Assembly: GCA_023265625.1 (NCBI GenBank)
Contig: JAHFST010000002.1
Coordinates: 225,024-289,023, forward strand
Origin: Deltaproteobacteria bacterium
GTDB taxonomy: Bacteria; UBA10199; JACPAL01; JAHFST01
DNA: 64,000 nucleotides
Direction: 5' to 3'
Of the stretch, positions 13,104-61,972 are shown in pieces. The notes under the pieces were generated by a model. The model was not told the DNA's origin. It made no database searches and saw only the letters and a list, made by a program, of their open reading frames with translations. The position numbers were made by a program, and so were the translations under genes. Every line of letters starts with the position of its first letter. Position 1 is the first letter of the stretch.

Positions 13104-13207
13104 GGGGAGAGTCCCTAGCAAAACGATCGTGACTTTGCAAGCTGCAGGAACTATTTCTTGACAAGCGGGCGACATTGCTATTTTTTTAATGCAGGGGGAA
13201 TTCACAT

Positions 13208-13414
13208 ATGAAGAAAATTTCGTTATCTATGGCTGTGGTGGTTGCCTTGGGATCATTCGCCGCGTGTAGTTTTAAAAAGAATTTGCCGGAAAGTACGAGT
13301 CATGAGGCGGCCCCTGCGGTAGCGGCCCCCGTCGCGGTCCCAGCCGCTCCGGAAACGGCGCCGGTCCCTGTGGCTGTTCCGGAATCGATGCCTACGGCTC
13401 CTGTTCATCCCTAA
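13208..13414 (+). CDS. Small Ala/Pro-rich lipoprotein
   Basis: A 68-residue predicted lipoprotein: a basic start, hydrophobic stretch and lipobox ending FAAC put the lipid-anchored Cys at position 20. The mature part of about 48 residues is low-complexity, built from Ala, Pro, Val and Glu, and resembles a flexible tether rather than an enzyme. AGGGGGA precedes the ATG by eight bases. It is divergent from mrcA and 50 bases ahead of the permease gene. Role unknown; a cell-envelope spacer is a guess. Confidence 0.7.
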   Translation: MKKISLSMAVVVALGSFAACSFKKNLPESTSHEAAPAVAAPVAVPAAPETAPVPVAVPESMPTAPVHP

Positions 13415-13464
13415 TGTTTTTGCCGCTTCTCATCCATGGCTAAATCTGATAGGAGAGGAACACC

Positions 13465-14526
13465 GTGACGCAGCGCCAGATCTTTGTCCTCTCTTTTTTT
13501 GGACTATTTTTTTTGATTGCCCTCCAATTGGCGGGGGTCTTCCGTTTATTTTTATTGCCGCTTGGTTGGGCGGTCATTCTCTCCATTGTATTCTATCCTC
13601 TCTACATTCGCATCCTGCGCGGGGTAAAAGGGCGGAAAAATATGGCCGCCTTAATCTCCGTTCTGATTGTCATGGTCATGACCTCGGCGCCGATGATTTT
13701 TTTTACCGGGACCCTGGTTCGTGAGACCTTGAGTTTTTATCACGATGTTTCCGGCTGGATTGACCAACGTCGGTACGAGGTTGCTTGGAATGCGTTGCTC
13801 AACTCTCCGCTACGTGTGATCTGGGATAAGATTATCGAGAAAACCGCCTCCCTAGACATCCAAATTGTCCCGTTGATTGGCAAGGCGATGCAAAATCTCT
13901 CCGATCAGATTGTCGGAAAGATTCAGGCGGGGGCCACCAATTTTCTGTTTTTTGTCGTCAATTACTTCGTCACGATCATCATTCTATTTTTTTTCCTCCG
14001 AGATGGCGAGGCGATGGGGCGCGGATTGAAGGATTTGTTTCCGATGACGCGAGAAAATAAGGAGGTGGTTTTTTCCCGCCTTTCCACCACCATCTCTGCG
14101 GTGGTGCGCGGCCTCGTGGTGACAGGCGGGGTGCAAGGGGCTCTCTCGGGATTGGCCTTCGCCTTGTTAGGGGTGCCTTTTCCGGTTTTTCTTTCGTTTT
14201 TGATCGCCTTTATGGCCCTGGTTCCAATTGGGGGGGCGGTGTTTGTCTGGTTGCCTTCCGCCGTTTATCTTTTTATGGCGGGCTCTTGGGGCAAGGCCTT
14301 GGCGTTATTTCTCTGGGGCGCCCTGGTCATCAGCACGGTCGATAATTTTTTAAAGCCTCTTTTGATCGGGGAAAAAACCAAGCTGCCCACCTTGTTTCTA
14401 TTTTTGGCCATCCTGGGTGGTTTGGTGTTCTACGGTTTTATCGGGGTTTTTCTAGGCCCCGTCATTCTCGCTCTGTTCTTGACCTTAATTGAGATTTATA
14501 GAAAAGAATATCCGGATCATCCGTAA
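13465..14526 (+). CDS. AI-2E family transporter (YdiK/PerM-like permease)
   Basis: A 353-residue integral membrane protein with about eight hydrophobic segments and the family's segment order: two N-terminal helices, a soluble stretch (RETLSFYHDVSGWIDQRRYE), then helices with FFLRDGEAMGRGLKDLFP, VVRGLVVTGGVQGALSGLAFALLG in two parts, and a C-terminal GFIGVFLGPVILALFLTL. The family was named for autoinducer-2 export but includes Na+/H+ antiporters and PerM, so the substrate is open. GTG start behind AGGAGAGG. Confidence 0.85.
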   Translation: MTQRQIFVLSFFGLFFLIALQLAGVFRLFLLPLGWAVILSIVFYPLYIRILRGVKGRKNMAALISVLIVMVMTSAPMIFFTGTLVRETLSFYHDVSGWIDQRRYEVAWNALLNSPLRVIWDKIIEKTASLDIQIVPLIGKAMQNLSDQIVGKIQAGATNFLFFVVNYFVTIIILFFFLRDGEAMGRGLKDLFPMTRENKEVVFSRLSTTISAVVRGLVVTGGVQGALSGLAFALLGVPFPVFLSFLIAFMALVPIGGAVFVWLPSAVYLFMAGSWGKALALFLWGALVISTVDNFLKPLLIGEKTKLPTLFLFLAILGGLVFYGFIGVFLGPVILALFLTLIEIYRKEYPDHP

Positions 14527-14536
14527 AGGGGAACCG

Positions 14537-15661
14537 ATGCTAAAAAAAATAATCGAAACGTTTTTTTGGGTGTGCGTTGCGTTGTCACCCTCCTGTTCTA
14601 GGAACAGCTCAGATATTCTCATCGGAGAGTACGGTTCTTTGACGGGGGGGACGGCGACCTTTGGCCAAAGTACGCATCGGGGTGTGACGATGGCCACGGA
14701 AGAGCAGAATGAACGCGGTGGATTGTTGGGAAAGAAGATTAAGATTATTACGGAGGATGACCAAAGCAAGCCGGAAGAGGCCAAGACGGTGGTTTTGAAA
14801 TTGCTCAAGCAGGATCGAGTGATTGCGTTGCTGGGAGAGGTGGCGTCTTCTCGCAGCCTGGCGGCTGCTCCGGAGGCGCAAAAGGCGAAGATCCCGATGT
14901 TGAGTCCCGCCTCCACCAATCCCAAGGTGACGGAAGTCGGGGACTATATCTTTCGCTCCTGCTTCATTGATTCTTTTCAGGGTGAGGCGATGGCTCATTT
15001 TGCCAAATCCCTGCATCTGAATCGGGTGGCCATTCTCAAGGATATTAAAAATGATTATTCAGTTGGTTTGGCGGATTATTTTGAACGCACCTTTCGTGCG
15101 CTGGGTGGCGAGATCACCGATATCCAATCTTACTCGGAAGGGGATATCGAGTTTCGCGCCCAATTGACGGCCCTGAAAGGCAAAAACCCCGAGGCTATTT
15201 TTATTCCCGGTTATTATACGGAGGTGGGATTGATTGCCCGGCAAGCCCGTGAGTTGGGACTGAACGTGCCACTGATGGGGGGCGATGGCTGGGACTCGCC
15301 CAAGACCTTGGAAATCGGCGGGGTGAGCGTCAATGAATCCTACTTTAGCACCCATTATGCCGCGGATGATCCGGATCCCAAGGTGAAGGATTTCGTGGAC
15401 AAGTACCGGAAAAAACATGGATCGGTGCCGGATGCCATGGCGGTATTGGGCTATGATGCCGCGGCTCTTTTGTTTGATGCGATCACGCGTGCCGGCACGA
15501 CGGATCCTGGAAAAATACGCGACGCCCTCGCGGCCACGCAGAATTTTTCCGGGGTTTCCGGGGCCATTTCCATGGATCCCAGTCGCAATGCCCGCAAGCG
15601 CCTGGTCATCCTCAAGATCGATAATGGCAATGTCCATTTCTACGATGCAGTGAAACCCTAA
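14537..15661 (+). CDS. livK: Branched-chain amino acid ABC transporter, substrate-binding protein
   Basis: A 374-residue periplasmic binding protein of the Leu/Ile/Val (peripla_BP_6) family. The mature region opens IGEYGSLTGGTATFGQSTHRG, followed by ERGGLLGKKIKIITEDDQSK, the family's first-lobe motifs, and ends with the usual FSGVSGAISMDPSRNARK. Cys20 after a hydrophobic stretch suggests a lipoprotein, though the lipobox (SPSC) is atypical. I start at ATG 14537, behind AAGGGGA, instead of the frame's first ATG inside the permease gene. It heads the complete liv operon. Confidence 0.92.
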   Translation: MLKKIIETFFWVCVALSPSCSRNSSDILIGEYGSLTGGTATFGQSTHRGVTMATEEQNERGGLLGKKIKIITEDDQSKPEEAKTVVLKLLKQDRVIALLGEVASSRSLAAAPEAQKAKIPMLSPASTNPKVTEVGDYIFRSCFIDSFQGEAMAHFAKSLHLNRVAILKDIKNDYSVGLADYFERTFRALGGEITDIQSYSEGDIEFRAQLTALKGKNPEAIFIPGYYTEVGLIARQARELGLNVPLMGGDGWDSPKTLEIGGVSVNESYFSTHYAADDPDPKVKDFVDKYRKKHGSVPDAMAVLGYDAAALLFDAITRAGTTDPGKIRDALAATQNFSGVSGAISMDPSRNARKRLVILKIDNGNVHFYDAVKP

Positions 15662-15665
15662 AATC

Positions 15666-16562
15666 GTGACCGAATTCCTACAGCAAATCATCAACGGCCT
15701 GGCTTGGGGGGCGATTTATGGTTTGATAGCGTTGGGTTACACCATGGTTTATGGCGTACTCCGCCTGATCAACTTTGCGCATGGTGATATTTATATGGTG
15801 GGGGCCATGGTCGGTTATTACGTGGCACGCTGGATCCCGCAAGGAACCGGTCTCGCCTCCTTTCTGAGTTCCTTATTGGCCGCCATGATTGTCTGCGGTT
15901 TGCTAGGGGCCTTGATTGAGCGGCTGGCCTATAAGCCGTTGCGGCATGCCCCGCGTATCAATGCGCTCATTACGGCCATTGGCGTTTCTTTATTCCTGGA
16001 ATATGCAGGCCAGTTGCTTTTTGGCGCCGACCCCAAATTTTTTCCGAACCTGATCGCGGACAAGGTTTTTCTCCAATGGCATGGCATTGTGATCAACCAA
16101 ATTCAGGTTTTGATTTTTTCGGTCACTATCGTTTTGATGGTGCTGATCCATACGATCGTGCAAAAAACGCGTTTGGGAAAAGCCATGAGGGCAGTCTCGT
16201 TTTCCCATACGGCCAGTCAACTGGTGGGGATTAATTTGAATGCCGTCATCACGTTTACTTTTGTGCTCGGGTCTTCCCTGGCAGGAGCGGCGGGGATCTT
16301 GGTCAGTCTTTCCAATCCCAAGATTGAACCGATGATGGGGATTATGCCGGGGCTCAAGGCGTTTGTGGCGGCCGTGTTGGGAGGCATCGGGAGTATTCCA
16401 GGGGCCTTGGTGGGCGGGCTCTTGATGGGCTTGTCGGAAACTTTTGTGGTGGGTTACATCTCATCGACGTACCGCGACGCCCTGGCTTTTTTGCTGCTCA
16501 TTGTGATCCTGTTGGTGCGCCCGAGCGGACTCTTTGGTCGATCGACGGCAGAGAAAGTATGA
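15666..16562 (+). CDS. livH: Branched-chain amino acid ABC transporter permease LivH
   Basis: A 298-residue inner-membrane permease, one of the two channel subunits of the importer. The N-terminus INGLAWGAIYGLIALGYTMV and GVLRLINFAHGDIYMVGA are diagnostic of LivH, as is the C-terminal GLKAFVAAVLGGIGSIPGAL coupling region. It uses a GTG start five bases after the livK stop and overlaps livM by four bases. Confidence 0.95.
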   Translation: MTEFLQQIINGLAWGAIYGLIALGYTMVYGVLRLINFAHGDIYMVGAMVGYYVARWIPQGTGLASFLSSLLAAMIVCGLLGALIERLAYKPLRHAPRINALITAIGVSLFLEYAGQLLFGADPKFFPNLIADKVFLQWHGIVINQIQVLIFSVTIVLMVLIHTIVQKTRLGKAMRAVSFSHTASQLVGINLNAVITFTFVLGSSLAGAAGILVSLSNPKIEPMMGIMPGLKAFVAAVLGGIGSIPGALVGGLLMGLSETFVVGYISSTYRDALAFLLLIVILLVRPSGLFGRSTAEKV

Positions 16563-17461
16563 ACCTTTATTACCTACAGATCATTAATATGATTGGCATC
16601 AATGCGATCATGGCCGTTAGTTTAAACCTGATCATTGGACATACCGGCCAATTCTCCTTGGGACACGCGGGTTTTATGGCCATTGGGGCGTATGGTTCTG
16701 CGGCCTTCACCGTTTATCAAAAGGCCTTTTTTCTCAAACTCTTTTCAGGTTTGCCTCCTTCGTTGGCCGAGTCCTTGTTGTTTTTAGTGGCCCTGATTTT
16801 TGGGGGAACACTGGCTTCGCTAGGTGGCTTGTTGGTTGGGATCCCGACCCTGCGTTTGCGCGGTGATTATCTGGCGATTGCCACATTGGGATTAGGCGAA
16901 ATTATTCGCGTGCTGGTGTTGAACCTGGACTTTGTCGGTGGCGCGCGCGGTTTCACCGACATTCCGGAATACACCAATTTTTTTTGGATCTATCTTATTT
17001 TAACAATCGTGGTGGTGATGATGACCCGTTTGGTGCACAGCGCCAAGGGCAAGGCATTTTTGGCGATTCGTGAGGATGAGATCGCCGCCAGTTCGATCGG
17101 CATTGACGCCTTTCAGTATAAGATCATCGCGTTTGTCGTGGGGGCCTTCTGGGCGGGAATTGGCGGGGGATTGTTCGCCCATCTCAATACCTACTTGCAC
17201 ACCAATTCTTTTTCTTTTCTCAAATCGATCGAATTTATCGGGATGGTGGTATTGGGCGGAATGGGTTCGGTGACCGGGTCGATCCTGGCCGCGTCGTTGT
17301 TGACCTTACTGCCTGAGGTTTTGCGGGTTGCCAGTGAATGGCGCATGATTATCTACGCATTACTTCTCATTGTTTTTATGATCTTGCGTCCCCAAGGATT
17401 GTTGGGAAAACGCGAATTCAAATGGTTGTTACCCAAACATCCAAAGGGCAAAAATGGCTGA
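16559..17461 (+). CDS. livM: Branched-chain amino acid ABC transporter permease LivM
   Basis: A 300-residue second permease subunit. Motifs: NLIIGHTGQFSLGHAGFMAI, GDYLAIATLGLGEIIRVLV, FLAIREDEIAASSIGID (the cytoplasmic loop contacting the ATPases) and SIEFIGMVVLGGMGSVTGS. The start overlaps livH by four bases and the end overlaps livG by eight, so the operon is tightly coupled. Confidence 0.95.
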   Translation: MNLYYLQIINMIGINAIMAVSLNLIIGHTGQFSLGHAGFMAIGAYGSAAFTVYQKAFFLKLFSGLPPSLAESLLFLVALIFGGTLASLGGLLVGIPTLRLRGDYLAIATLGLGEIIRVLVLNLDFVGGARGFTDIPEYTNFFWIYLILTIVVVMMTRLVHSAKGKAFLAIREDEIAASSIGIDAFQYKIIAFVVGAFWAGIGGGLFAHLNTYLHTNSFSFLKSIEFIGMVVLGGMGSVTGSILAASLLTLLPEVLRVASEWRMIIYALLLIVFMILRPQGLLGKREFKWLLPKHPKGKNG

Positions 17462-18242
17462 ATTGTTACGGAGCGAACACTGTGGCATTCAGTTTGGAGG
17501 GCTCCGAGCGCTTCACGATATTTCCATTCGCATCGCCGCCGGGGAACTTTTGGGGATGATCGGGCCCAATGGTGCGGGGAAGACGACTTTTTTCAATCTC
17601 CTCACGGGGGTCTATCGCGCCACTTCGGGAGTCATTTTTTTCGACGAACATGGGTTGGAAAAACTCAAGACTTTTCAAATCAGTCATTTGGGGATGGCGC
17701 GCACCTTTCAAAATATTCGCCTGTTCGCCGATTTGACGGTAGTCGACAATGTCTTGGTGGCCTTTCATTATCAAATGAAAAGTTCCTTGGGGGCCTCCGT
17801 GGTTCGGGGGGAGAAGTGGCGCGCGGAAGAAATCTCCTGGCATGACACGGCCAGGGAGTTGCTGCAGTTTTTTGGCTTGTGGGAGCGCCGACATGAGCTT
17901 GCTAAGAATCTTCCCTACGGGGATCAACGTCGGCTCGAGATTGTCCGGGCCTTGGCGACGCGTCCCAAGCTGCTTCTTTTGGACGAGCCAGCGGCGGGGA
18001 TGAATCCGACGGAGAAGAACCAATTAATCGGGTTGATTCGCATGGTGCATCAGAAATTTCAACTTGCGATCCTGCTCATCGAGCATGACATGAGCGTGGT
18101 GATGAGTCTCTGTCCGCGTATTATCGTTTTGGATTATGGTGAAATTATCGCTGAGGGGACTCCCCAAGAGATTCGTAACAATCCCAAAGTGATCGAGGCC
18201 TATCTCGGCACGGCTCCTGTAAATTATGTTACTTCAAATTGA
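17454..18242 (+). CDS. livG: Branched-chain amino acid ABC transporter ATPase LivG
   Basis: A 262-residue ABC ATPase. Walker A is GPNGAGKTTFFNLLTG, the LivG-type insert ARTFQNIRLFADLTVVDNVLV follows, the signature is LPYGDQRRLEIVRALA (an L-P-Y-G-D-Q variant common in this family), and Walker B is LLLLDEPAAGMNPTE. It forms the ATPase heterodimer with LivF. It overlaps livF by 17 bases. Confidence 0.95.
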   Translation: MAELLRSEHCGIQFGGLRALHDISIRIAAGELLGMIGPNGAGKTTFFNLLTGVYRATSGVIFFDEHGLEKLKTFQISHLGMARTFQNIRLFADLTVVDNVLVAFHYQMKSSLGASVVRGEKWRAEEISWHDTARELLQFFGLWERRHELAKNLPYGDQRRLEIVRALATRPKLLLLDEPAAGMNPTEKNQLIGLIRMVHQKFQLAILLIEHDMSVVMSLCPRIIVLDYGEIIAEGTPQEIRNNPKVIEAYLGTAPVNYVTSN

Positions 18243-18933
18243 AAATCTTTCGGTTCACTACGGTGCTATTCATGCCCTCAAGGGAATTTCCTTGGAGGTG
18301 GCCGCGGGGGAGATAGTGACCCTGATCGGTCCCAATGGGGCGGGTAAGACCACGCTCCTCCGGACGATATCCGGGGTGTTGCGGGGTTCTTCGGGACAGA
18401 TTCTCTATGATGGATTTCCCATGGAGATGATGCCGCCTCATCGGATTGTGGCTCAAGGGATCGCGCAGGTCCCCGAGGGCCGGCTCATCTTTCAAAATTT
18501 GACCGTTTTGGAAAATTTAGAGCTCGGCGCTTATTCGCGCCGCGATCGCCATGGACTGAAGGTTGAGCAAGAATGGATTTTTCATCTCTTTCCCAGGCTT
18601 CAGGAACGGCTTTCACAACAAGCAGGAACGTTATCCGGCGGTGAACAGCAGATGTTGGCTATCGGACGTGCCTTGATGGCCAAGCCGCGTTTACTGCTTT
18701 TGGATGAACCCTCACTGGGTTTGGCACCCGCCTTGGTGCAACAAATTTTCAAGGCCTTGGTGGAGATCAATCGGCAAGGTACCACTTTGTTACTCGTGGA
18801 ACAGGATGCCTATTTGGCGCTGGAGACCTCACAACGCGGGTATGTGATGGAAACCGGTGAAATTAAGCTGTCTGGAAAAAGTGCGGAGTTGTTGAGTAAT
18901 CCGCAGGTTAAAAAAGCCTATTTAGGGCAATAA
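18226..18933 (+). CDS. livF: Branched-chain amino acid ABC transporter ATPase LivF
   Basis: A 235-residue ABC ATPase completing the importer. Walker A GPNGAGKTTLLRTISG, VAQGIAQVPEGRLIFQNLTV (the LivF-type Q-loop region), signature TLSGGEQQMLAIGRALM and Walker B LLLLDEPSLGLAP are all intact. It is the last gene of the liv operon; the sequence beyond its stop is a dispersed repeat and then a gene on the opposite strand. Confidence 0.95.
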   Translation: MLLQIENLSVHYGAIHALKGISLEVAAGEIVTLIGPNGAGKTTLLRTISGVLRGSSGQILYDGFPMEMMPPHRIVAQGIAQVPEGRLIFQNLTVLENLELGAYSRRDRHGLKVEQEWIFHLFPRLQERLSQQAGTLSGGEQQMLAIGRALMAKPRLLLLDEPSLGLAPALVQQIFKALVEINRQGTTLLLVEQDAYLALETSQRGYVMETGEIKLSGKSAELLSNPQVKKAYLGQ

Positions 18934-18950
18934 CTTTTCCCGCTGCCTCC

Positions 18951-18982
18951 GTGAGATCCTTCGCCTACGGCTCAGGATGACA
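18951..18982. repeat. Short dispersed repeat between convergent genes
   Basis: The stretch GAGATCCTTCGCC, TACGG, CTCAGGATGAC carries partly complementary ends (ATCCT and AGGAT) around a GC-rich centre. It resembles a small interspersed element I know from many bacterial genomes (GAGATTCTTCGC...CTCAGAATGAC type). It sits between the convergent livF and the cation exchanger gene, where it may act as a weak bidirectional hairpin. Confidence 0.5.
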
Positions 18983-46787: not shown

Positions 46788-49700
46788 ATGAATTTTGCTG
46801 CAGGAACAACCTATCATAAGGGAATTTCCTTCTATTTGGGAGAGCTGGGAGGACTCGTTGACCGAGGACTGCTCGCTACTTTGCCTCCGGCCCGTCTTGA
46901 GGTGATGCGCACCCGCGCCTCGGCGTTATTAGGTCTTGTGGCCGATGCGGATCCGATTGCGACTTCGCCAGCGGTTGCCGCGCAATTGGTCCAATTGCAG
47001 TCCGGGATCGGGGACAAGGGGCGCAATCTTCGGGACTTAATCCCCGAAGTGGTGGCCCTCGCTCGTTTGGTGCTGCCAAAAGCGGAAGGGACAAACGGCG
47101 CCGGCTTATTGGGTTTGTTCGGGTCTGTTCCGGGGGCATCCCAGCAATTGCAGGTGGTCAAAAAGTTTATCCGTGAACGTCTGTCCGTCAGCCGTGACTT
47201 ACTCGTTCGTTTGAAACGGGTGCGGGAACAGGCCGCAGGCCTGGAGCAGCTGGGAAGGCATGACCGTGCCCTTTTGCAACAAATTGATGAGGCGGTGGAT
47301 CGACAGAAATGTTTGGCAGCGTCAGTGGAAACTTTGGACGACGCTCATGCGATTGACGCCAGTCATCAGGCCACCAATCATTACCTACATGCGAGCTTGT
47401 TAGAATCGGTATTTTTGGAACACGCGCGATTGGGACCCTTGCTTCGTGATGCGGCGTCACCTGTTCCCGAAGCAATTGCCGAGCCGCCGCCAGGAAACGG
47501 GGGTGCGCCACATGAAACGCCGGCATCAATATCGGCTTCTGCCTCTTATCGCCCCTTGTGGCCCGAACATTTTACCCTCATCCCCGCCTGGAGTCGGTGC
47601 AATCTGGTGGACTACTGTGCTGCCTTTGGGGTCGATTTGAGCGAGGTGGATGCGGATTCATTCAAGCGGGCGGTTGGGGTGACGCCGCGTACCATCATCG
47701 GATGGAGCCATTCGGATAATCGTCCTGCCAAGATCGGCTATGTGGTTGCTTTGTACCGTTACCTCGTGGAGTCAGCCTCGCGACAACAGGAGGTCGAGCG
47801 ACAAGCAGGAACACACGTGGACCCCGTAGAGTTGCCGGATCCGATGGATCTGTTGCGTTTGGTTTGCGGCTCATGGGGCGATCCCCTCTTTGTTTCCCAT
47901 GTCATGGGCGACCCCAGGCAAGTGATGGTTCCAATCCCATACCAGATTGCCGATATTCCCGCCGACCGGATCTCCTATGGTCCCGTGTTGCGACGGATTC
48001 GGGAGACCATTGCCCCCAGCGCTCAGGACGATATTAATTGGTTATTGCAGGGTTACCATCGTGGGGCCATTACGGGTGACACTTTTCAGGATCATGCTGC
48101 GGGCAGGGTGAGCGCGAGGGCCCGTACCAGAAAGAGTCGTGACACGGTTCGCGTATTTCTTGGGGATTCGTTTAACTTTTTTTTGGAGATCCAGCCCTAC
48201 CTTCGTGCCGTCGGTGTCTTGACGGAGGTCCCCAGCCGTCGGATGTTCGGCGATCCAAGTCATTCCCAATATCGGATTCGATTGGTGCCCGACCAGGTTG
48301 CCGTCGATTGGGCGAGTGTCCGCCCAAAACTGGAACCGGATCAGGCCCCTTACGCCTACTACCTGGATGGTCGAATGAGCTCGTTCTTGGCTTGGTTGCG
48401 CCAGCGTATGAAATTCATGAGGTTGGTCCTGGGATGGCAGGATGACTGGCCGATTACGATCAATGGGCTCAAACTACAAACCTTTGCGGGTCTCGAAGCG
48501 ACACTGGATGATTTGTCAGAGAAAGCGGATGTTGAAACTACCAACCTATCAGAGTGTCTGAAAGACCCCTCTCAGATCACGCCGCGGACTGAAACCGATG
48601 CCTACGAATTGACCCGTCGTATCCTGCGTTTCCACCGGTCTTTGGAAACGATTGCCGTGCTGGGCCATGTGACTCACGGCCCCCTGGCGATTGATTACCG
48701 GTTTGTCGGATCCAGCGAGGCGGCTATGGCGCGGGCTTGGCAGACAGAACAGGGTTATATGGTGGCGTTGGATCCAGGTCCCCTGATACAGAAGTGGCTT
48801 TCTGGTGGAATCTCAAACGAGACGGCAGGGCAGTTGTTTCACTATCGTGTCGTGCGGGAGGCGATGCGAGTGCGATTGGCAATCCGCGATCAACCGGGGG
48901 ATTTTTTTGATGAGGCCCTCTGCAAGTTTTTGTTTCCCGAGTCCAAGAAACGAGACCTGGAATCCTTATTAAAATCCCATCAGGCCTGGACGCAAGCCGC
49001 CAAGGGAGAAGGGATTGATCCGCTCTGTCTCGATCCATTTGCGCTGCAGGTGCTCGATCGGATGTCTATGAATCCCCGGCGCACCACTCGTCCTGTGGGA
49101 AAGACGTCCCTAACGCAGCAGATCGTCAAATACTTTTACGACAACTACGGAGTTCCTCCTGCCAATGCGGAGCCGCTGGTGACAGGCCTGCAAACTTATC
49201 TTGATACGGAGGGGAATGATCATTTCGCTGACGGGCGTCTCCTCGGGATGCTGGCCACCCTATTTACAGAAGAAGAGATCACCTCCTGGAAACCGGTCTT
49301 TTTGGATCTCCTGGCTTACTTGGGATTTCCGAACGGTGATGCCGAACTGGCGGCCAAGGTCGCTTCGGAGATAGTATCAGCGGAGGGAGCGCCTGGGAGT
49401 GGAGAAACGCCAACTGTGATAGTTCCTGGGCAACTTTCCCGATGGTTGGAGGCCTACCTTCTCCGGCAGGGACAGACCGGGGACGCGAACCTTTGCTGGC
49501 TCCGTTCCTTGGCGCAACGATCGGTTGGCCTGTTGGCGGGAGAGATGCCAGATGCGAGTGAGGTGGATGCGTGGGAACGGGATTTTCAGGCGGAGCTGAC
49601 CCAGACCTTGGGACTTTTGGTGACTCCCGGATTGGGCCTGCCGTTTTTACAGGCCATGGCTCGGGAACTTTCCCGGGTAACTTCCGATAATTTTCGAGTG

Positions 49701-52580
49701 GATGAAGATGGTATTGAACGGTCAGAAGCCTTGACGACGATCCAACGTCGCCTGATGGCTGACGAAATTTCGGACGTCCCGGAGCTCTTGTCTGTGTGGC
49801 TCAGCGAGACATTGGAACAGGTGCTGCGGTCAGAACAGCAACTCTTGGATGCCTTGCGCGAGACATCCAACGCCAAACCGCGGGATCAGGTGGGATGGAG
49901 GGCCCTCTTTTTTACTCGGGCGATTCAATGGCCTGCGTTGGGGGTAACGACAGCAAACTGGGAGGATGTCCTGCGACGTCATGAGACCAGGATGGAGCTC
50001 CTTCATCCCGGGCATCCAAATTTGGTGAGAAAAAATATGGAGCAGGCATTGGCTTCGTTGCCCGAGGTCTATATCCCTGAATTGGCGCCGATCCAGGGAT
50101 GCCAACAGGCCTTGGTGGCCTACGCGGCCGCCCGGGGGGAAATCGTGACGGTTGCAGCGTTGGCAGAACGGATCCGTCGTTTTTTCGCATCAGCCCCTGA
50201 CGACACCTCGCGGAACGTAGTGGTAGCCTTGCGCCAAAAACGATTGGAAACGGATGTTATTGGAGAGGTTGCCACTGAAATGTTGGCGGTATTGGCCAAA
50301 ACGATCAGGAGGGTTACACCGGAATCGGAGGCCTTCAAACGAGCCCAGCGCGCCGTCTACGAAGGTTTGGAAAAAGAACAGCGCGAGGCGGATGAACTTT
50401 TTGGCCAGATGGATACCTTGCTGCATTGGACGGAGGAGGCGTGGTCTCAAGCACCGGTGAAGGATAGGGAGGGTTGGCAGGAACTTTTACTGCGGCTGGG
50501 AAATGAACTTGGCGTGGAAAACTTTCCCGCGACCTGGGGAGGGTGGGAGACCTACTTAGAAAACCTCGAATTGCGGGGGATCTTGGCCCGTCGACCGAAC
50601 CCTTTGGAGATCCGACAGCGAGTGGCTGGGGTGCTAGCGGCGCTTCCACCACGAACATCATCGGTCCCTGTGCCAAAAGCGGAGTGGTCCGTTGAGCCGT
50701 TTCATCTCCTGGACGAGGTTGGATATGCCACTTTTTGGCGTGAGATGCTTTCCCAAATCCCAGTGGTTGCGGATGAGTCAATGGATTGCCATCTCATTAT
50801 TTATCGGGACGAGGGAGGAAATTACCGTGCGGCCTTTCTACAGGAGGCGAGTTGGCAGGGGCTGGGGAGCTTAGGCGTGCTCAACCATACCCGTCACACC
50901 CTGACCACAGTTTACGGAGATGTCCTTGTTTTGGAAAATTTTAGGGTCCTGTCGGGTCAAGCGGGCCCGATCGCCGCTCTCAAAAAAATAGCTTCTTGGG
51001 CCATGTCCCTAACACCGGATAATTCCAACTATGTCGATGTACAATTTCTCCTGACTGTCCTCCTGGCGCAAGGAGGGATTGCTTACGGTTCGGATCTCAT
51101 CCCGACTCTTGAAGAGGAGCTGGAGGGCCTGCCGGTTTCGTTGCGGGAGCGACTCAACCGTTTTTATCGGGACAATCGGGAAAAAATTGACCGCAATCGG
51201 CTTTATTTTGCAAATATCGGCGTTCATCCGATCACCACTGAGCTCACGCAGCAGTTGAACGATGTGACTGGAACAGACCCTCGTTTTGCCATGATGGCCG
51301 TAGCCATGTTGGATCTGCCCTATCAAGGGATTTTGCCAGCTGAATTGTCAGGGCCCTTAGCCGAGGCCATCGGCGGTTTTACGCCAGGTGCGGCGGATGG
51401 CTTTGTTCGTTTTCGTCAGAAGTTGGAGTCGCTGTGGCCTCAGATGAAAAGACATTTTTATGGTCGAGGAGACGAGCTCTCCCTCGTGAGTCGGGCCCAA
51501 CGGCGCACCCTGGCGACCGCCATGGAAGGGGATTTTCGCACCCCCGGCATAGATCCGGAGAGGAGCCTGGCCTTTGGGCATATTTTGGGACTACTTCGGC
51601 CCGAGTCCGACCGGTTGGCAGCGCGCGCCTTGGTCCGTATCTTCGATCCTTTTGTTACGAACCAAGAGCCCCCGTACGTCGGCTCCTTTGTCAAACTACT
51701 GTTAAGCGCTGTCCCCAAAGGGACGCAGAAACTCTCGGAGGCGGTGGTCGGCTTCTATCAACGAAGGCGCGCCGAGCTCCTCTGGCGTCTCTGGGAGGAG
51801 CGACATCACCCCGATATGCACCCCTGGATCGATGCCTTTCTCCCGGAGATGGATCAAATGCCTCCCCGTTTTGCCTTGAGTAGCCAGTTTCCGGAACTGG
51901 AGGCCATGACCTATGCGGAGATAGATCGTTTTAGGTTCGAGTATAAGACGGTTGTCGAGTGCCTGCGCAACCAAGGGAATTATATCGAGATCAGTATTGT
52001 CAAACAGGGATTGATCAGTCGGATTATTCTGCCCCAATCGAAGATGATCCTGCGATCTATTCAGGGGCAGATGTTAGCGGTTGGCATCAAGGGATCCGCG
52101 GGTGGAGGGGGGTATTATTTTAGGAGCATTGTGGCAAGAATGCCTGGTTTAAGAAACCGCACGATACCCGTTGATGCCCTGGAGGAGGTGACCTTTGAGG
52201 ATGTGACGGGAACGATGGTCACCCTGAGGGATGATCCGGTTTTTACGACGGCTTTCATCGACGCCAATATCAATCCCGATACCAAAATTCAGTATCAGGG
52301 CCCCCTCAAAATCTTACTGGAGGACCGATTGCGCGACCTGCATCCTCTCATCGTCCTGATGCAATGCAGTCAATTTGACAGTCATTCGGTATTAATGACA
52401 CAACGCGATTTTCTGATGGACGGGCATGCCTTGTACAAGACCATCGTAGGCTATAGCGCAGCGGAATGGGCTCTAGAAGCGACGATAAAACGGATACGCT
52501 CAAGCTTCATCGATCTTTATCGCCGCCACCATGCGGCACTGGTTACTTCCGGTCTTGATCCCCGCTTCATCCCTTCATAA
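46788..52580 (+). CDS. Giant protein of unknown function (1930 residues)
   Basis: A single uninterrupted frame for 1930 residues, one of the longest genes here, which I cannot assign to a family. There is no signal peptide or membrane helix, no Walker, kinase, nuclease or repeat motif that I recognise. Visible features: an N-terminal helical part, a Pro/Ala-rich linker around 222-252, a helix-turn-helix-like stretch (RAVGVTPRTIIGWSHSDNRP, about 294-313), a mostly helical middle, and beta-rich segments after about 1330 (MDCHLIIYRDEGGNYRAAF) and near the C-terminus. Codon use resembles the neighbours. It could be a cytoplasmic scaffold, secreted effector or defence protein; nothing decides. Confidence 0.85.
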   Translation: MNFAAGTTYHKGISFYLGELGGLVDRGLLATLPPARLEVMRTRASALLGLVADADPIATSPAVAAQLVQLQSGIGDKGRNLRDLIPEVVALARLVLPKAEGTNGAGLLGLFGSVPGASQQLQVVKKFIRERLSVSRDLLVRLKRVREQAAGLEQLGRHDRALLQQIDEAVDRQKCLAASVETLDDAHAIDASHQATNHYLHASLLESVFLEHARLGPLLRDAASPVPEAIAEPPPGNGGAPHETPASISASASYRPLWPEHFTLIPAWSRCNLVDYCAAFGVDLSEVDADSFKRAVGVTPRTIIGWSHSDNRPAKIGYVVALYRYLVESASRQQEVERQAGTHVDPVELPDPMDLLRLVCGSWGDPLFVSHVMGDPRQVMVPIPYQIADIPADRISYGPVLRRIRETIAPSAQDDINWLLQGYHRGAITGDTFQDHAAGRVSARARTRKSRDTVRVFLGDSFNFFLEIQPYLRAVGVLTEVPSRRMFGDPSHSQYRIRLVPDQVAVDWASVRPKLEPDQAPYAYYLDGRMSSFLAWLRQRMKFMRLVLGWQDDWPITINGLKLQTFAGLEATLDDLSEKADVETTNLSECLKDPSQITPRTETDAYELTRRILRFHRSLETIAVLGHVTHGPLAIDYRFVGSSEAAMARAWQTEQGYMVALDPGPLIQKWLSGGISNETAGQLFHYRVVREAMRVRLAIRDQPGDFFDEALCKFLFPESKKRDLESLLKSHQAWTQAAKGEGIDPLCLDPFALQVLDRMSMNPRRTTRPVGKTSLTQQIVKYFYDNYGVPPANAEPLVTGLQTYLDTEGNDHFADGRLLGMLATLFTEEEITSWKPVFLDLLAYLGFPNGDAELAAKVASEIVSAEGAPGSGETPTVIVPGQLSRWLEAYLLRQGQTGDANLCWLRSLAQRSVGLLAGEMPDASEVDAWERDFQAELTQTLGLLVTPGLGLPFLQAMARELSRVTSDNFRVDEDGIERSEALTTIQRRLMADEISDVPELLSVWLSETLEQVLRSEQQLLDALRETSNAKPRDQVGWRALFFTRAIQWPALGVTTANWEDVLRRHETRMELLHPGHPNLVRKNMEQALASLPEVYIPELAPIQGCQQALVAYAAARGEIVTVAALAERIRRFFASAPDDTSRNVVVALRQKRLETDVIGEVATEMLAVLAKTIRRVTPESEAFKRAQRAVYEGLEKEQREADELFGQMDTLLHWTEEAWSQAPVKDREGWQELLLRLGNELGVENFPATWGGWETYLENLELRGILARRPNPLEIRQRVAGVLAALPPRTSSVPVPKAEWSVEPFHLLDEVGYATFWREMLSQIPVVADESMDCHLIIYRDEGGNYRAAFLQEASWQGLGSLGVLNHTRHTLTTVYGDVLVLENFRVLSGQAGPIAALKKIASWAMSLTPDNSNYVDVQFLLTVLLAQGGIAYGSDLIPTLEEELEGLPVSLRERLNRFYRDNREKIDRNRLYFANIGVHPITTELTQQLNDVTGTDPRFAMMAVAMLDLPYQGILPAELSGPLAEAIGGFTPGAADGFVRFRQKLESLWPQMKRHFYGRGDELSLVSRAQRRTLATAMEGDFRTPGIDPERSLAFGHILGLLRPESDRLAARALVRIFDPFVTNQEPPYVGSFVKLLLSAVPKGTQKLSEAVVGFYQRRRAELLWRLWEERHHPDMHPWIDAFLPEMDQMPPRFALSSQFPELEAMTYAEIDRFRFEYKTVVECLRNQGNYIEISIVKQGLISRIILPQSKMILRSIQGQMLAVGIKGSAGGGGYYFRSIVARMPGLRNRTIPVDALEEVTFEDVTGTMVTLRDDPVFTTAFIDANINPDTKIQYQGPLKILLEDRLRDLHPLIVLMQCSQFDSHSVLMTQRDFLMDGHALYKTIVGYSAAEWALEATIKRIRSSFIDLYRRHHAALVTSGLDPRFIPS

Positions 52581-57112: not shown

Positions 57113-57595
57113 ATGAAACAGCTTTGGGCCCCCTGGCGGCTAGAATTTATTTTAGGCAAAAAAGAAAAAGGCTGCGTTTTCTGCACTCGGGTCCGCCGCC
57201 AGCGCGATGTCGAAGATCTCATCTTGTTCCGCGGTCGCCATAATTTCGTCATCCTGAATAAATTCCCCTACAACAACGGCCACCTGATGGTCATCCCCAA
57301 CCGGCATACGGCGGATCTCGCCTCCATGACGGCGGCGGAAAAACGGGAGATGTTTGATTTGACACAAAAGGCCGTTGTGGTGATCGCCAAGACCTTCCAT
57401 CCCGCGGGATTCAACTTAGGCATGAACCTGGGCAAGGCGGCGGGGGCAGGGATTGCCGATCACCTCCATCAGCATGTTGTCCCTCGTTGGGAAGCAGACA
57501 CCAATTTTTTGCCGGTGTTGGCCGAGGTGAAACAGATGCCGGATCATATCCAAAATACCTATCGTTTGCTGAAACAGGCCTGGTGTAAGAAATAG
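57113..57595 (+). CDS. HIT-family nucleotide hydrolase/phosphorylase
   Basis: A 160-residue histidine-triad protein. HLHQHVVPRW places the triad at His117, His119 and His121, and a CxxC pair at Cys21/Cys24 likely binds zinc. Members of this branch (MPWRLEFI... start) resemble AP4A phosphorylases or adenosine 5'-phosphosulfate-type hydrolases; the substrate is uncertain. It starts three bases after thrC. Confidence 0.9.
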   Translation: MKQLWAPWRLEFILGKKEKGCVFCTRVRRQRDVEDLILFRGRHNFVILNKFPYNNGHLMVIPNRHTADLASMTAAEKREMFDLTQKAVVVIAKTFHPAGFNLGMNLGKAAGAGIADHLHQHVVPRWEADTNFLPVLAEVKQMPDHIQNTYRLLKQAWCKK

Positions 57596-57602
57596 CGAGC
57601 TG

Positions 57603-58319
57603 CTAAACACGACCCGTGGGAGGACGGCGTTTTGCCTTCAACAAATCTTTTAAAGTGGTGGTGGCGGCGTTGCTTGCGGCACTTTCCTTCTGTTTGATAG
57701 GACTCTGAAACAGCGCCTCAAGTTTCTTGAAGGCTTTTTCACCGGCATCAACGGTCTGGGTAAATTGGGACGAGTGAGACGTCGAGCCACTGGCTTGGCT
57801 CATTCCCTTTGGCATTCCGTGGACATCAATCTGCAAAACACGCAAGGGAGAAGGAAAACGTTGGAGCATTTTTGCAAAATCGTTTTTGACCGCCTGATCG
57901 ACGATATATTTTCCATTTTTGAATTTTCCGGCCGACTGATAATTTTTTAACACCTGGGGAATAGACGATGTCTTGAGCCAAGTGGATGGAACCAGGTAGT
58001 CGGCCAGCAGGGTGGCAAACTCGGCCTCGCTATATTCCGCGTCTTTTAAACGACTCGGGTCAAAGGGCTTGTCGACAAAGCCGGCATAGCGGAATTTCTT
58101 TTTCTCCATCCATTGAGCATGGGTGACTCTATACCCCCCTGCTTTCTGCTTGCTGGAGGCAAAGGCCTCCAGCCATGCCTCGAGGCTAAATTTTTCCGCA
58201 TCCACAAACCCGTTGGCATAGAGGTAGACCAGGTCATAGTCATTCTGGTAGACGACAAGCTTTTCACCCCCCTCAGCGACGGTGGCCACCTTGTCCCAAA
58301 TTTGCTGCATTGGATCCAT
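57603..58319 (-). CDS. Unknown protein of the radical SAM locus (238 residues)
   Basis: A 238-residue cysteine-free protein with no recognised family. It begins MDPMQQIWDKVATVAEGG and has aromatic/basic regions (NGFVDAEKFSLEAWLEAFAS, YRVTHAQWMEKKKFRYAGF) in the first 110 residues and a basic, Ser/Thr/Ala-rich tail ending KAKRRPPTGRV. There is no signal peptide or membrane helix. It is the last of five minus-strand genes and converges with the HIT gene. A structured N-terminal domain plus disordered tail is my reading; function unknown. Confidence 0.7.
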   Translation of the reverse strand: MDPMQQIWDKVATVAEGGEKLVVYQNDYDLVYLYANGFVDAEKFSLEAWLEAFASSKQKAGGYRVTHAQWMEKKKFRYAGFVDKPFDPSRLKDAEYSEAEFATLLADYLVPSTWLKTSSIPQVLKNYQSAGKFKNGKYIVDQAVKNDFAKMLQRFPSPLRVLQIDVHGMPKGMSQASGSTSHSSQFTQTVDAGEKAFKKLEALFQSPIKQKESAASNAATTTLKDLLKAKRRPPTGRV

Positions 58320-58395
58320 AAATATCCGAGTAGCTATTGGAAATTATTACAATTTTATTGTACGGGGAGAGGGGCTTCAAGTCAAGCCAAGCCTA

Positions 58396-58857
58396 CTAGG
58401 TGAAAAAGGAGGAACCGGAAACCATTCCTTGTTGGTCGATTTCCTTACTTTTCAGGGCAAATTCCTTGTCGTCGTGCTTTTCTTGATAGCCTAATTGTTT
58501 GGCCTCAAAGTCTATCTTGGCCAAATTTTCCGCGTGACCCAGGTTGTCTTGATGGATTTGGGCATTGAATTGTAGCATGGCCATCCGAAGCTCATTGCGC
58601 ATCCCCCGGCGCTCATTGGCAGACATGCGGGCATCGGAAAGGTCGGCGTAGTGCATCTGGGCCATGGCGACTCTCTCTTGACTCTGGACCCCAAACTGGA
58701 AATCCAGGGACTTGATATTGGCCTGTGAGATCATGTTCATGCCCATGATGCTGATCTGTTGGGTCTGTTGGGTGGCCTGAAATCGTGCCGCATCGGCTGC
58801 GATATCAGCGTCATTATTTTGCGAAAACGTGCCAAACAGAACTGATGAACTCGCCAT
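58396..58857 (-). CDS. Unknown coiled-coil protein of the radical SAM locus (153 residues)
   Basis: A 153-residue cysteine-free protein rich in Gln, Met, Ala and charged residues, almost all predicted helix: ADAARFQATQQTQQISIMGM, SQERVAMAQMHYADLSDARM and LRMAMLQFNAQIHQDNLGHA have heptad-like spacing suggesting a coiled coil. A strong ribosome binding site (AGGAGG, five bases before ATG) supports it as real. It lies 76 bases upstream of the previous gene's start. Cysteine-free helical Gln-rich proteins can be secretion substrates or filament components; this is inference only. Confidence 0.72.
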   Translation of the reverse strand: MASSSVLFGTFSQNNDADIAADAARFQATQQTQQISIMGMNMISQANIKSLDFQFGVQSQERVAMAQMHYADLSDARMSANERRGMRNELRMAMLQFNAQIHQDNLGHAENLAKIDFEAKQLGYQEKHDDKEFALKSKEIDQQGMVSGSSFFT

Positions 58858-59014
58858 AATATCCTCCTGGTTCGATCCTTCTCTCCTAAGTTAATGCAAG
58901 GAGTATGCCAGATTAAAATATAATAATATCAAGTATTTGTATACTATAGCCGAACTATCATTGAGGGCTGAAACACTGAAATTAGGGTCTTTAGACACCA
59001 GATTGGAGAGAGTC

Positions 59015-59422
59015 TTAAGCAAGGGTCGAGGCATCAACATTACCGTCAAAGAGTTGAGGAATCTTTGCAGTGCTTTCGGTCACTTGGGCCACTTGAGCCG
59101 CTTGGGTTCCCTGAGCACTTGGGCTGGCACTGGAAGATTTGTTGGCATATTTGTCTTTAACCAATTGAGCGAGTAGTTCGAGTACTTTTCCATCATCAGC
59201 CTTAGCGGGTTGAGGAGTTGGCGGTGGTGCTGGTTGAGCCTGGGGTGCTGGAGAATCGGAGTATCCCATGGACTTCTCCACCGCGGCGATAAACCCGGCA
59301 TTAGATGTAGCATCTTTAGCCATCTTATCTCCAGCTGATGCGGCACTCCCAGCCGCGTCAGCGCGTGTCTTTTTATCATTCTCCGTGAGAAGTGTAATGG
59401 CAGCCATAATCAAAGGTATCAT
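59015..59422 (-). CDS. Unknown protein translationally coupled to radical SAM gene (135 residues)
   Basis: A 135-residue cysteine-free protein: a hydrophobic start (MIPLIMAAITLL, perhaps a short anchor), an Ala/Ser/Lys helical part, a Pro/Ala/Gln linker around 58-73, then a short helix KVLELLAQLVKDKY and a Ser/Ala/Gln-rich tail. Its ATG overlaps the radical SAM stop (ATGA), so it is made from the same message. No family is recognised. A reverse-strand frame over it (58937-59176) is a shadow. Confidence 0.68.
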   Translation of the reverse strand: MIPLIMAAITLLTENDKKTRADAAGSAASAGDKMAKDATSNAGFIAAVEKSMGYSDSPAPQAQPAPPPTPQPAKADDGKVLELLAQLVKDKYANKSSSASPSAQGTQAAQVAQVTESTAKIPQLFDGNVDASTLA

Positions 59423-60312
59423 AACAACTCCTTATGCTTCTCTGATTTAATCATTTGATTAAAATTAACCCTTCGATAATCCATTTGCCCATTTTGCTCG
59501 TTCCGTGCCACGTACACCACACCCCTATTGGGATTGAGCACATAAGCATCGATGCAACACACCGAGCCATCTGTTTGGTAGTAGGCCTCGGCGGGGTCTA
59601 AATTAACCTTGGCCAAGCCCTCAAAATGGGGGCGACACACCTTGGCCCCTGGGACTTCCCCCGCCAGCCGACCAAAGGCCCTGGTAAAGGCCTGCAGGGT
59701 AGCCGCTCGATTTTGATTGGTTGTTAAGATCGTGATTTCATTGGGTTGGAGGACTTGAAAGACGTTTTTCATGTGGCTGATGTAGGCCTTGTCTCCTAAT
59801 TCGCGTGCCCAGCGGCTCTCGAGTGAGAACGAGACCCGGATACCATCAAAACTGGGCCAGCGTTCGTCAAAATAGTTTCGTAATTTTTGGGCCGCCCGTT
59901 CCCCAATGGACCCCATTTCAAAGCCGGCCGTGGAAATAAACGTGGGATTGAACAGCGTGTAGACATCGAAAAAATCTTTATCAAATGCCGCATCGTAGTA
60001 GTCTTTCAAAGGGTCGCTGTCGAAGAACAGACTGTTGATGGTGTGGCGTTTCTGCTGGATGGTCTTGATGCCACCCACCCACGGGATGTTATGAGTTTCC
60101 TCTGTCTCCAGTGACCAGACACGATTGGCAATCTCTACCACCCACGGCCAGGGCATGACCCGCACACTTTTACTGGCCGCCATGGCGCAAAAATCACACC
60201 CCACCGAGCAGCCCTGGGTGACATTGATCACCTTGGGGGAGGTGAGGAGATGACGAACCTCTTCTGGGTCCCATCCCTCGAAATAACTGTTTAAAAAAGC
60301 CGGTAGATGCAT
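59419..60312 (-). CDS. Radical SAM protein of unknown specificity
   Basis: A 297-residue radical SAM enzyme. The cluster motif is CSVGCDFC with Cys35, Cys39 and Cys42 and a short preceding strand (VINVTQG) as expected; ISFSLE-type substitution reads VRVSFSLESRWA in the later barrel, where SAM binds. Further cysteines in KVCRPHFEG and DGSVCCIDAYVLNPNRG could bind an auxiliary cluster, resembling a short SPASM-like end. AGAGGG lies four bases before ATG. It is flanked by four unknown cysteine-free proteins on the same strand; the substrate is unknown. Confidence 0.82.
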   Translation of the reverse strand: MHLPAFLNSYFEGWDPEEVRHLLTSPKVINVTQGCSVGCDFCAMAASKSVRVMPWPWVVEIANRVWSLETEETHNIPWVGGIKTIQQKRHTINSLFFDSDPLKDYYDAAFDKDFFDVYTLFNPTFISTAGFEMGSIGERAAQKLRNYFDERWPSFDGIRVSFSLESRWARELGDKAYISHMKNVFQVLQPNEITILTTNQNRAATLQAFTRAFGRLAGEVPGAKVCRPHFEGLAKVNLDPAEAYYQTDGSVCCIDAYVLNPNRGVVYVARNEQNGQMDYRRVNFNQMIKSEKHKELL

Positions 60313-60321
60313 TTTTCCCTC

Positions 60322-60777
60322 TTAAAGATCCCCATCGAACGAATCATCCTGATTACCTTGATCATAACTATTGGGATCCAGGTCATTCTTTGCGGCCTCC
60401 TCATCGGAGGTCTTGGCCTCGTCGGCCGTCGTCTTGTAGTCCATCCCGCTGTAAAGATCCTGCGAGAGGTCCGCCTTGGCCTGTTCGGCGATAAAATCTT
60501 TCTTTTCCGGAAGATGCAGATCAGCCCTGAGTTTGTCTTCTTCCCGACTATTCATCACCTTATTCCAGTTCATCAAATAATTAGCCCCCGATTGAAAGGC
60601 ATCCTGGGTGGCTTCACCGGCCAAGGAGCGTAGCTCGCCACGCAACTCCAATTTATCGGCATGTTCCATTTCTAAATTGAAAATCTTCTCCTGACTGGCA
60701 CTACCATTCGCCTTGTCTTGTTCGCCGATAGCCAGGACTTGGGATAAATATTTTTGAACTAAATCGATATCAGACAT
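60322..60777 (-). CDS. Unknown acidic protein heading the radical SAM locus (151 residues)
   Basis: A 151-residue cysteine-free, strongly acidic protein: helical first 95 residues (DIDLVQKYLSQVLAIGEQDK, KIFNLEMEHADKLELRGELR) and a disordered acidic tail ending in DDSFDGDL. GGAGGG lies five bases before ATG. It is the first gene of the minus-strand locus, nine bases before the radical SAM gene. Function unknown; it might be a substrate, chaperone or partner of the enzyme. Confidence 0.7.
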   Translation of the reverse strand: MSDIDLVQKYLSQVLAIGEQDKANGSASQEKIFNLEMEHADKLELRGELRSLAGEATQDAFQSGANYLMNWNKVMNSREEDKLRADLHLPEKKDFIAEQAKADLSQDLYSGMDYKTTADEAKTSDEEAAKNDLDPNSYDQGNQDDSFDGDL

Positions 60778-60955
60778 AGAGACCCTCCAATCTCTGTATA
60801 AGCAATTCTTGTGCCGCAGATAAATATTAGTAGATTCAGCTAGTTATGGGATAGATGGATTTTTATCTGTGGGGTAGCGGGGGGATATTGATGACTCAAG
60901 ACCCCAAAAAATCACTTTGCGATTCCGCGTAAAATCATTTACCAAAGAAGACTCC

Positions 60956-61972
60956 ATGTCTGACATTCTTCTCAAAAAAATGTTCTCCGGCGACCGTTTG
61001 GCCCTCTCCCGGCTCATTTCGATGGTCGAAAACCGCTCTGGAGACCTCGTGGCGCTGATGGCCCAGGTCCAGGAACGCTGTGGCCAGGCCCACCGGATTG
61101 GCATTACCGGCCCTCCCGGGGCGGGTAAAAGTACCTTGGTTGATCGGCTGATTGCGCAATTTCGTCAGGCGGGCAAGCGGGTCGGGGTCATTGCCATTGA
61201 TCCCTCCAGTCCCTTTACGGGTGGGGCGGTGTTGGGGGACCGGATTCGGATGCAGGATCATGCCTCGGATGAGGGTGTCTTCATTCGCAGCCTGGGGAGT
61301 CGGGGAAGTCACGGAGGTTTGTCACGGGCCACTCGAGAGGTCTCCAAATTGTTCGATGCCTTTGGTTTTGAGGTGATTTTGATCGAGACGGTGGGGGTGG
61401 GACAGACGGAGCTCGATATTATGGAATTGGTCGACACCACGTTGGTGATCTTGACCCCGGAGTCAGGCGATACCATCCAGACCATGAAGGCGGGGATTTT
61501 GGAGATTGCCGATATCTTTGTGGTCAACAAGGCCGATCGCGACGGAGCGGATCGCATGCAGGCGGAATTGACCGTCATGCTCGAGATTGGCAGGACTCAT
61601 GAACAAGCATGGACGGTGCCGGTGTTGGCCACGCAAGCATTTCATAATATCGGGGTTCGCGAGTTGGGGGAGGCCTTGACGGCGCATTTCGCCTTCATTC
61701 GCAAACAAGGTGTGAATCAAGCCAAGCGCGGCCTCCTGTTTCGTTCCGAAGTGGCCGAGATCTTGAGTGATGAGATAAAATCGCAAGTGCATCAATGGCT
61801 CGAGACCGTTCAGTTTGACCGAAATCACAACCCCTATTTGGTCGCCCAACAGGCCCTCAAGGAGGCACCATGGCTGCTCCAGCACGCTTCATCACGTCCC
61901 TCAACCCCGCGACGGAAGAGCCCCTCGCGGAGTTCGAGTGCGCCGACGCGGAAAAAATCGCGAAAACGGTAA
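60956..61972 (+). CDS. MeaB/ArgK-type P-loop GTPase
   Basis: A 338-residue G3E-type GTPase, the chaperone that loads and protects adenosylcobalamin enzymes such as methylmalonyl-CoA mutase. Walker A is GPPGAGKST (52-60), followed by VIAIDPSSPFTGGAVLGDR, IETVGVGQTELDIMELVDTT and VVNKADRDGADRM. I start at ATG 60956; the frame's first ATG at 60917 adds 13 odd residues. The last 34 residues (a Ser/Arg/Pro-rich basic tail) are read from within the next gene in another frame. No cobalamin mutase gene lies in the window. Confidence 0.9.
   Translation: MSDILLKKMFSGDRLALSRLISMVENRSGDLVALMAQVQERCGQAHRIGITGPPGAGKSTLVDRLIAQFRQAGKRVGVIAIDPSSPFTGGAVLGDRIRMQDHASDEGVFIRSLGSRGSHGGLSRATREVSKLFDAFGFEVILIETVGVGQTELDIMELVDTTLVILTPESGDTIQTMKAGILEIADIFVVNKADRDGADRMQAELTVMLEIGRTHEQAWTVPVLATQAFHNIGVRELGEALTAHFAFIRKQGVNQAKRGLLFRSEVAEILSDEIKSQVHQWLETVQFDRNHNPYLVAQQALKEAPWLLQHASSRPSTPRRKSPSRSSSAPTRKKSRKR

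Follow-up and report, generated by a model that had tools for sequence, protein, structure and literature searches.

The 64,000-nucleotide stretch of DNA analysed here (the window) carries, on its minus strand, three genes of a module that is restricted to one uncultivated bacterial class, together with a very divergent radical SAM enzyme and its overlapping partner gene. Our preferred explanation is a tentative one, quite possible if still short of probable: the small proteins of the locus would be exported products of a type III secretion system (T3SS) regulon, and a lineage-specific radical SAM enzyme would modify one of them. As such, the locus supplies definite candidate substrates that are specific to the class and marked by a promoter signature, and it suggests that radical SAM chemistry may be connected with T3SS substrates. 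No description of the substrates of this class's near-universal injection-type machine was found in the open papers searched, and the literature search found no precedent for radical SAM chemistry linked to T3SS substrates.

The five genes all lie on the minus strand. The gene of an acidic 151-aa protein (60322..60777, net charge -18) opens an operon that continues with the radical SAM gene (59419..60312, 297 aa) and the gene of an Ala/Pro-rich 135-aa protein (59015..59422; 20.7% A, 8.1% P, with a short, hydrophobic N-terminus), the last two sharing an ATGA overlap. These three genes are tightly packed. The gene of a Gln-rich coiled-coil protein of 153 aa (58396..58857, 11.8% Q) follows after an AT-rich gap of 157 bp that holds its own promoter-like site, and the gene of a conserved 238-aa protein (57603..58319) follows after a gap of 76 bp with a sigma-70-like site, a kind of site that is no commoner here than chance. 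Judged from the spacing and the promoter-like sites, the five genes are probably not transcribed as one unit; there may be up to three units, i.e. acidic-radical SAM-Ala/Pro, Gln-rich and 238-aa. An initial annotation of the same sequence had described the five genes, their cysteines, the ATGA overlap and strong ribosome-binding sites (AAGGAG, AGAGGG and AGGAGG), and all of these are present; its statement that the companions of the enzyme are free of cysteine also holds, with 0 Cys in each of the four. The GC3 of the five genes is 0.55-0.62 vs 0.62-0.70 in the flanking genes, the exception being the Ala/Pro-rich gene with 0.40; apart from this lower GC3, the codon-position GC and the overall GC of the five genes broadly resemble those of the host.

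The acidic, Gln-rich and 238-aa genes belong to a class-restricted module that occupies a fixed chromosomal site, with threonine genes and a HIT-family gene (57113..57595, plus strand) on one side and the MeaB GTPase gene (60917..61972, plus strand) on the other. In a family profile search the 238-aa family (also referred to as the 240-aa family below) was found in 39 of the 46 class genomes and in none of 339 others; when the four companion proteins were used as queries, most class genomes were matched, and this was via the 238-aa protein. The family is convergent to the HIT gene, a neighbour conserved across the class, and usually also to a gene of a small LapA-like membrane protein, and MeaB bounds the locus in the order to which this genome belongs as well as in the majority of the other class genomes that were read. 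Directly upstream of the family, most of the class genomes read encode one to several small proteins, which are Gln- or Glu-rich coiled coils, acidic proteins, or proteins in which a coiled coil comes after a hydrophobic, Ala/Gly-rich N-terminus. Note that 14 of 15 such proteins in the relatives lack cysteine and the remaining one has a single Cys. Homologues of the Gln-rich protein are found in the same locus of four relatives (G001, G002, G004 and G013), and those of the acidic protein in G002 and G004, where they too open the module. In G002 and G004 the module has all its parts and no radical SAM enzyme, so the module does not depend on the enzyme. The initial annotation had asked whether the five genes recur together in other genomes. 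What recurs at this site are the acidic, Gln-rich and 238-aa genes, class-wide and without this enzyme, and also other radical SAM enzymes, but not the set of five; among the genomes searched, this one alone has the radical SAM gene and the Ala/Pro-rich gene that overlaps it.

The 238-aa protein has a well-predicted domain, as its model reaches a pLDDT of at least 90 in each ten-residue block of residues 1-170. The predicted fold had no match in the PDB or in a viral library at E<=0.001, and a profile search of the PDB gave no match either; the fold is apparently new, and the family can serve as a class-specific marker. An EF-hand-like reading of the model was dropped, as the light-chain matches were weak and poorly superposed. 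The identity of the family with the T3SS gatekeeper CopN/SctW (PF22342) was likewise dropped as marginal: the profile matches 3 of 26 family members at E 0.018, but it does not match the protein of the window, and the PDB gives no match by profile or fold.

The radical SAM protein carries the CX3CX2C motif of the SAM-binding [4Fe-4S] cluster (CSVGCDFC with C35, C39 and C42; 60187..60210, minus strand). Three C-terminal cysteines, C226, C252 and C253 (59554..59637, minus strand), are twitch/SPASM-like by eye only and possibly form an auxiliary cluster; the enzyme has no SPASM profile match in Pfam or NCBIfam. Its likeness to the radical SAM superfamily lies in the N-terminal motif and in weak profile matches in that region, namely 19 bits with PF04055 over residues 29-100 (curated cut-off 29.5) and a best NCBIfam match with PoyD (TIGR04517) over residues 22-48 (E 3.5e-5). 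PoyD is thus the nearest named subfamily, but the score of 22.9 bits is to be set against a cut-off of 325 and covers the cluster-motif region only. The initial annotation had asked about a named subfamily; assignment to the PoyD-type RiPP epimerases is not supported. The enzyme differs from the known families in that it stays under the curated cut-offs, lacks a full-length relative in the collections searched and has just three further cysteines. No relative was found at E<=0.001 in 385 genomes (the class and a sample across the domain), nor in the PDB or in phage and plasmid collections, and pattern scans of genome and viral collections, which reach close relatives only, gave none. The single-sequence model has a pLDDT of 43, which is too poor to use, and a check for a (beta/alpha) barrel on this low-confidence model gave no Foldseek match at E <= 0.001. 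The Ala/Pro-rich protein has no relative among the genomes searched and shows a weak match to the HaaA precursor (E 0.036).

Type III secretion genes are nearly universal in the class, with FHIPEP proteins in 44 of 46 genomes. The SctV protein of this genome (contig C10) scores 795.8 bits with TIGR01399, over the NCBIfam equivalog cut-off of 692, and a copy in G002 passes the same cut-off. This genome has a flagellum and, in addition, encodes a second Bac_export_2 protein of the SctU type that is not flagellar; the assembly, which is 95.6% complete, yielded the flagellar FliP and not a second SctR. Full sct clusters could be recognized by eye in G002 and G012 on the basis of gene order and sequence, and in G008 SctV is present and the 240-aa protein absent. 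In none of the loci read is a T3SS gene next to the module. A further SctV-like gene, which lacks the full conserved C-terminal match, lies on contig C16 of this genome (L058, G000:C16:10000-29900; 11466-18962) with a sigma-54-type site at -29; it is followed by small proteins, one of them with a central hydrophobic stretch, and the region also encodes a 761-aa membrane protein that is nucleotide-transporter-like by eye. Possibly this region represents a second T3SS.

The promoter-like sites point from the module towards these secretion genes. In the window, a sigma-54-type match (CGGCACAAGAATTGCT, 60801..60816, minus strand, 1 mismatch) is positioned 39 bp before the acidic gene, and another (TGGCATACTCCTTGCA, 58895..58910, minus strand, 0 mismatches) 53 bp before the Gln-rich gene. 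Such sites precede 8 of 131 module-side genes vs 1 of 367 other genes (Fisher p 1.4e-4), and in four genomes (this one, G002, G004 and G013) the first gene is preceded by one at -38 to -42. In the sites of the module loci it is the position alone that is telling and not the number, as whole module loci hold 12 sites vs 7 in the control, which is no clear excess, and the 64-kb window holds 3 vs 2.5 expected. T3SS regions, on the other hand, contain 36 sites vs 4 in the reversed control, a ninefold difference, and sctV itself has a site at -42 in G007 and G014. In Chlamydia, T3SS effectors have been reported to be under sigma-54 control (PMC7482065). As a separate observation, large proteins of 370-520 aa are encoded behind sigma-54-type sites in T3SS regions (L126, L129, L121, L119, L117 and others) that belong to several genomes of the class.

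A direct resemblance between module and T3SS genes is found in G002. The 19-residue pattern M..[YW]GF[DE]......PG[EQ][RK]FG, which starts both Gln-rich proteins of its module locus, also starts a 1081-aa and a shorter protein encoded beside sctT; it occurs in exactly these four places of the genome (control 0), and the genome searched as DNA has no near-misses with 1-3 mismatches. The corresponding N-terminal scores are 55 and 50 vs a maximum of 37 in 3682 cross-genome controls. Sharing of an N-terminal motif was seen in G002 alone of the 15 genomes tested, and not in the genome of the window, therefore the idea of a general sharing between module and T3SS genes was dropped. The 1081-aa protein (G002:C3; L103 3587-6832, minus strand) is, judged from its sequence, a candidate large T3SS substrate. 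With these sites and this motif, the T3SS link that the initial annotation had considered worth testing has gained support.

A comparison with known T3SS substrates shows similarities as well as differences. The module proteins are small, helical and coiled-coil, some with hydrophobic segments; the module has RpoN-type promoters as T3SS genes do, and an N-terminal motif is common to both in one relative. On the other hand, neither Pfam nor NCBIfam places the module proteins in a known substrate family, and their genes lie outside the sct cluster.

Taken as a mechanism, the T3SS reading would run as follows. The module sits at a fixed site and combines one conserved folded protein of about 240 aa with one to several small proteins that are coiled-coil, acidic or hydrophobic and almost free of Cys; it is most likely transcribed from sigma-54 promoters, jointly with the T3SS of the class. 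The small proteins would most likely be T3SS substrates, either translocon, tip or filament-like components or effectors, and the 240-aa protein most likely a dedicated partner in the cytosol. This genome has the genes of the radical SAM enzyme and of the translationally coupled Ala/Pro-rich protein inserted after the acidic gene. The enzyme, with its cluster at C35/C39/C42 and a possible auxiliary cluster at C226/C252/C253, would generate a 5'-deoxyadenosyl radical and place a non-thioether modification on a module protein before export. We speculate that the Ala/Pro-rich protein is the first candidate, the simplest one because it is encoded in overlap with the radical SAM gene.

Radical SAM genes are not confined to this genome. 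A cluster-motif scan of the 250 genes that lie no more than 8 kb from the 240-aa family found nine radical SAM genes (a tenth match, MiaB-like by eye, is left out of this count), vs 1 among 353 genes in T3SS loci. The nine genes are spread over six genomes, four of them in G015, and in the five genomes besides this one the enzymes at the locus are different ones, mostly of the B12-type. Four of the nine are orthologues of the B12-type, with 38-48% identity in the comparisons made; in G026 a distance of 3 bp separates the gene from the 240-aa gene ahead of it, and the enzyme of the window is a third type, within the operon of the acidic gene. The B12-binding enzymes (G001, G006, G009 and G015) share with it the chromosomal slot and the module, but they belong to another subfamily; Pfam finds a B12-binding domain in the G001 enzyme and none in that of the window. 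That radical SAM chemistry modifies the exports of a T3SS, with different enzymes repeatedly recruited to one class-wide substrate locus, is in our opinion a rather doubtful reading. The B12-type enzymes are often accompanied by aldolase, carbamoyl- or methyltransferase genes, and their company could equally mean small-molecule or glycan chemistry.

Small-molecule tailoring is indeed the main rival to the modification of exported proteins. The module would be as described above, and the enzyme would act on a small molecule or a glycan precursor, as one of several tailoring enzymes dropped into the locus in different lineages (B12-type radical SAM enzymes, an HMGL-like aldolase, an HpcH/HpaI aldolase, a TylF methyltransferase, a carbamoyltransferase and a DegT-like aminotransferase). 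Such enzymes are typical of glycan or natural-product tailoring and they recur in the locus, the carbamoyltransferase, TylF and HpcH/HpaI genes near the module in single genomes each, and the modules of the nearest relatives lack this radical SAM enzyme. However, the genome of the window has no further tailoring enzyme between HIT and MeaB, and its radical SAM gene is tightly packed with two small-protein genes, overlapping one of them; we consider this alternative somewhat unlikely. Less likely still is a RiPP-like peptide modification of the epimerase or cyclophane type, with the Ala/Pro-rich or another small protein as precursor and no link to the T3SS. The PoyD match and the weak HaaA match speak for it, but the former covers the cluster motif alone, the locus has no gene of a peptidase, exporter or recognition element, and homologues of the Gln-rich and acidic proteins occur in genomes without a radical SAM gene at the locus. 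A sactipeptide reading, which the initial annotation had already judged unsuitable, was dropped on the same grounds and because none of the four companions is a Cys-containing precursor; its view that this is not a cofactor or tRNA-modification cluster was upheld as well.

About equally improbable as the RiPP reading is that the small proteins have no role in secretion and are structural components of the cytoplasm or the envelope, the shared sigma-54 sites and the G002 motif reflecting general regulation and gene duplication. The separation of T3SS genes from the module and the confinement of motif sharing to one genome agree with this. Against it stand the ninefold excess of sigma-54-type sites in T3SS regions and the fact that the four exact motif copies in G002 are solely in the module locus and beside T3SS genes, at the extreme N-terminus, which is where T3SS signals are located. 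A prophage or mobile-element fragment, finally, is very improbable. The small helical orphan proteins give the impression of phage structural proteins in composition, but the best PHROG match (E 0.047) is not significant, phage, plasmid and viral collections gave no match, terminal repeats are absent, codon usage is broadly host-like, and the site is conserved and fixed across the class; this candidate was dropped as largely refuted.

Some further genes around the module should be mentioned. The window encodes a 1930-aa protein (46788-52580, plus strand), its gene flanked by an aminotransferase gene and the threonine genes, for which there is no Pfam match and no relative among the loci fetched. 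In several families of the class, HMGL-like aldolase (4-hydroxy-2-oxovalerate aldolase-like) genes recur near the module (L037, L040, L136, L149, L139, L142, L146 and L148).
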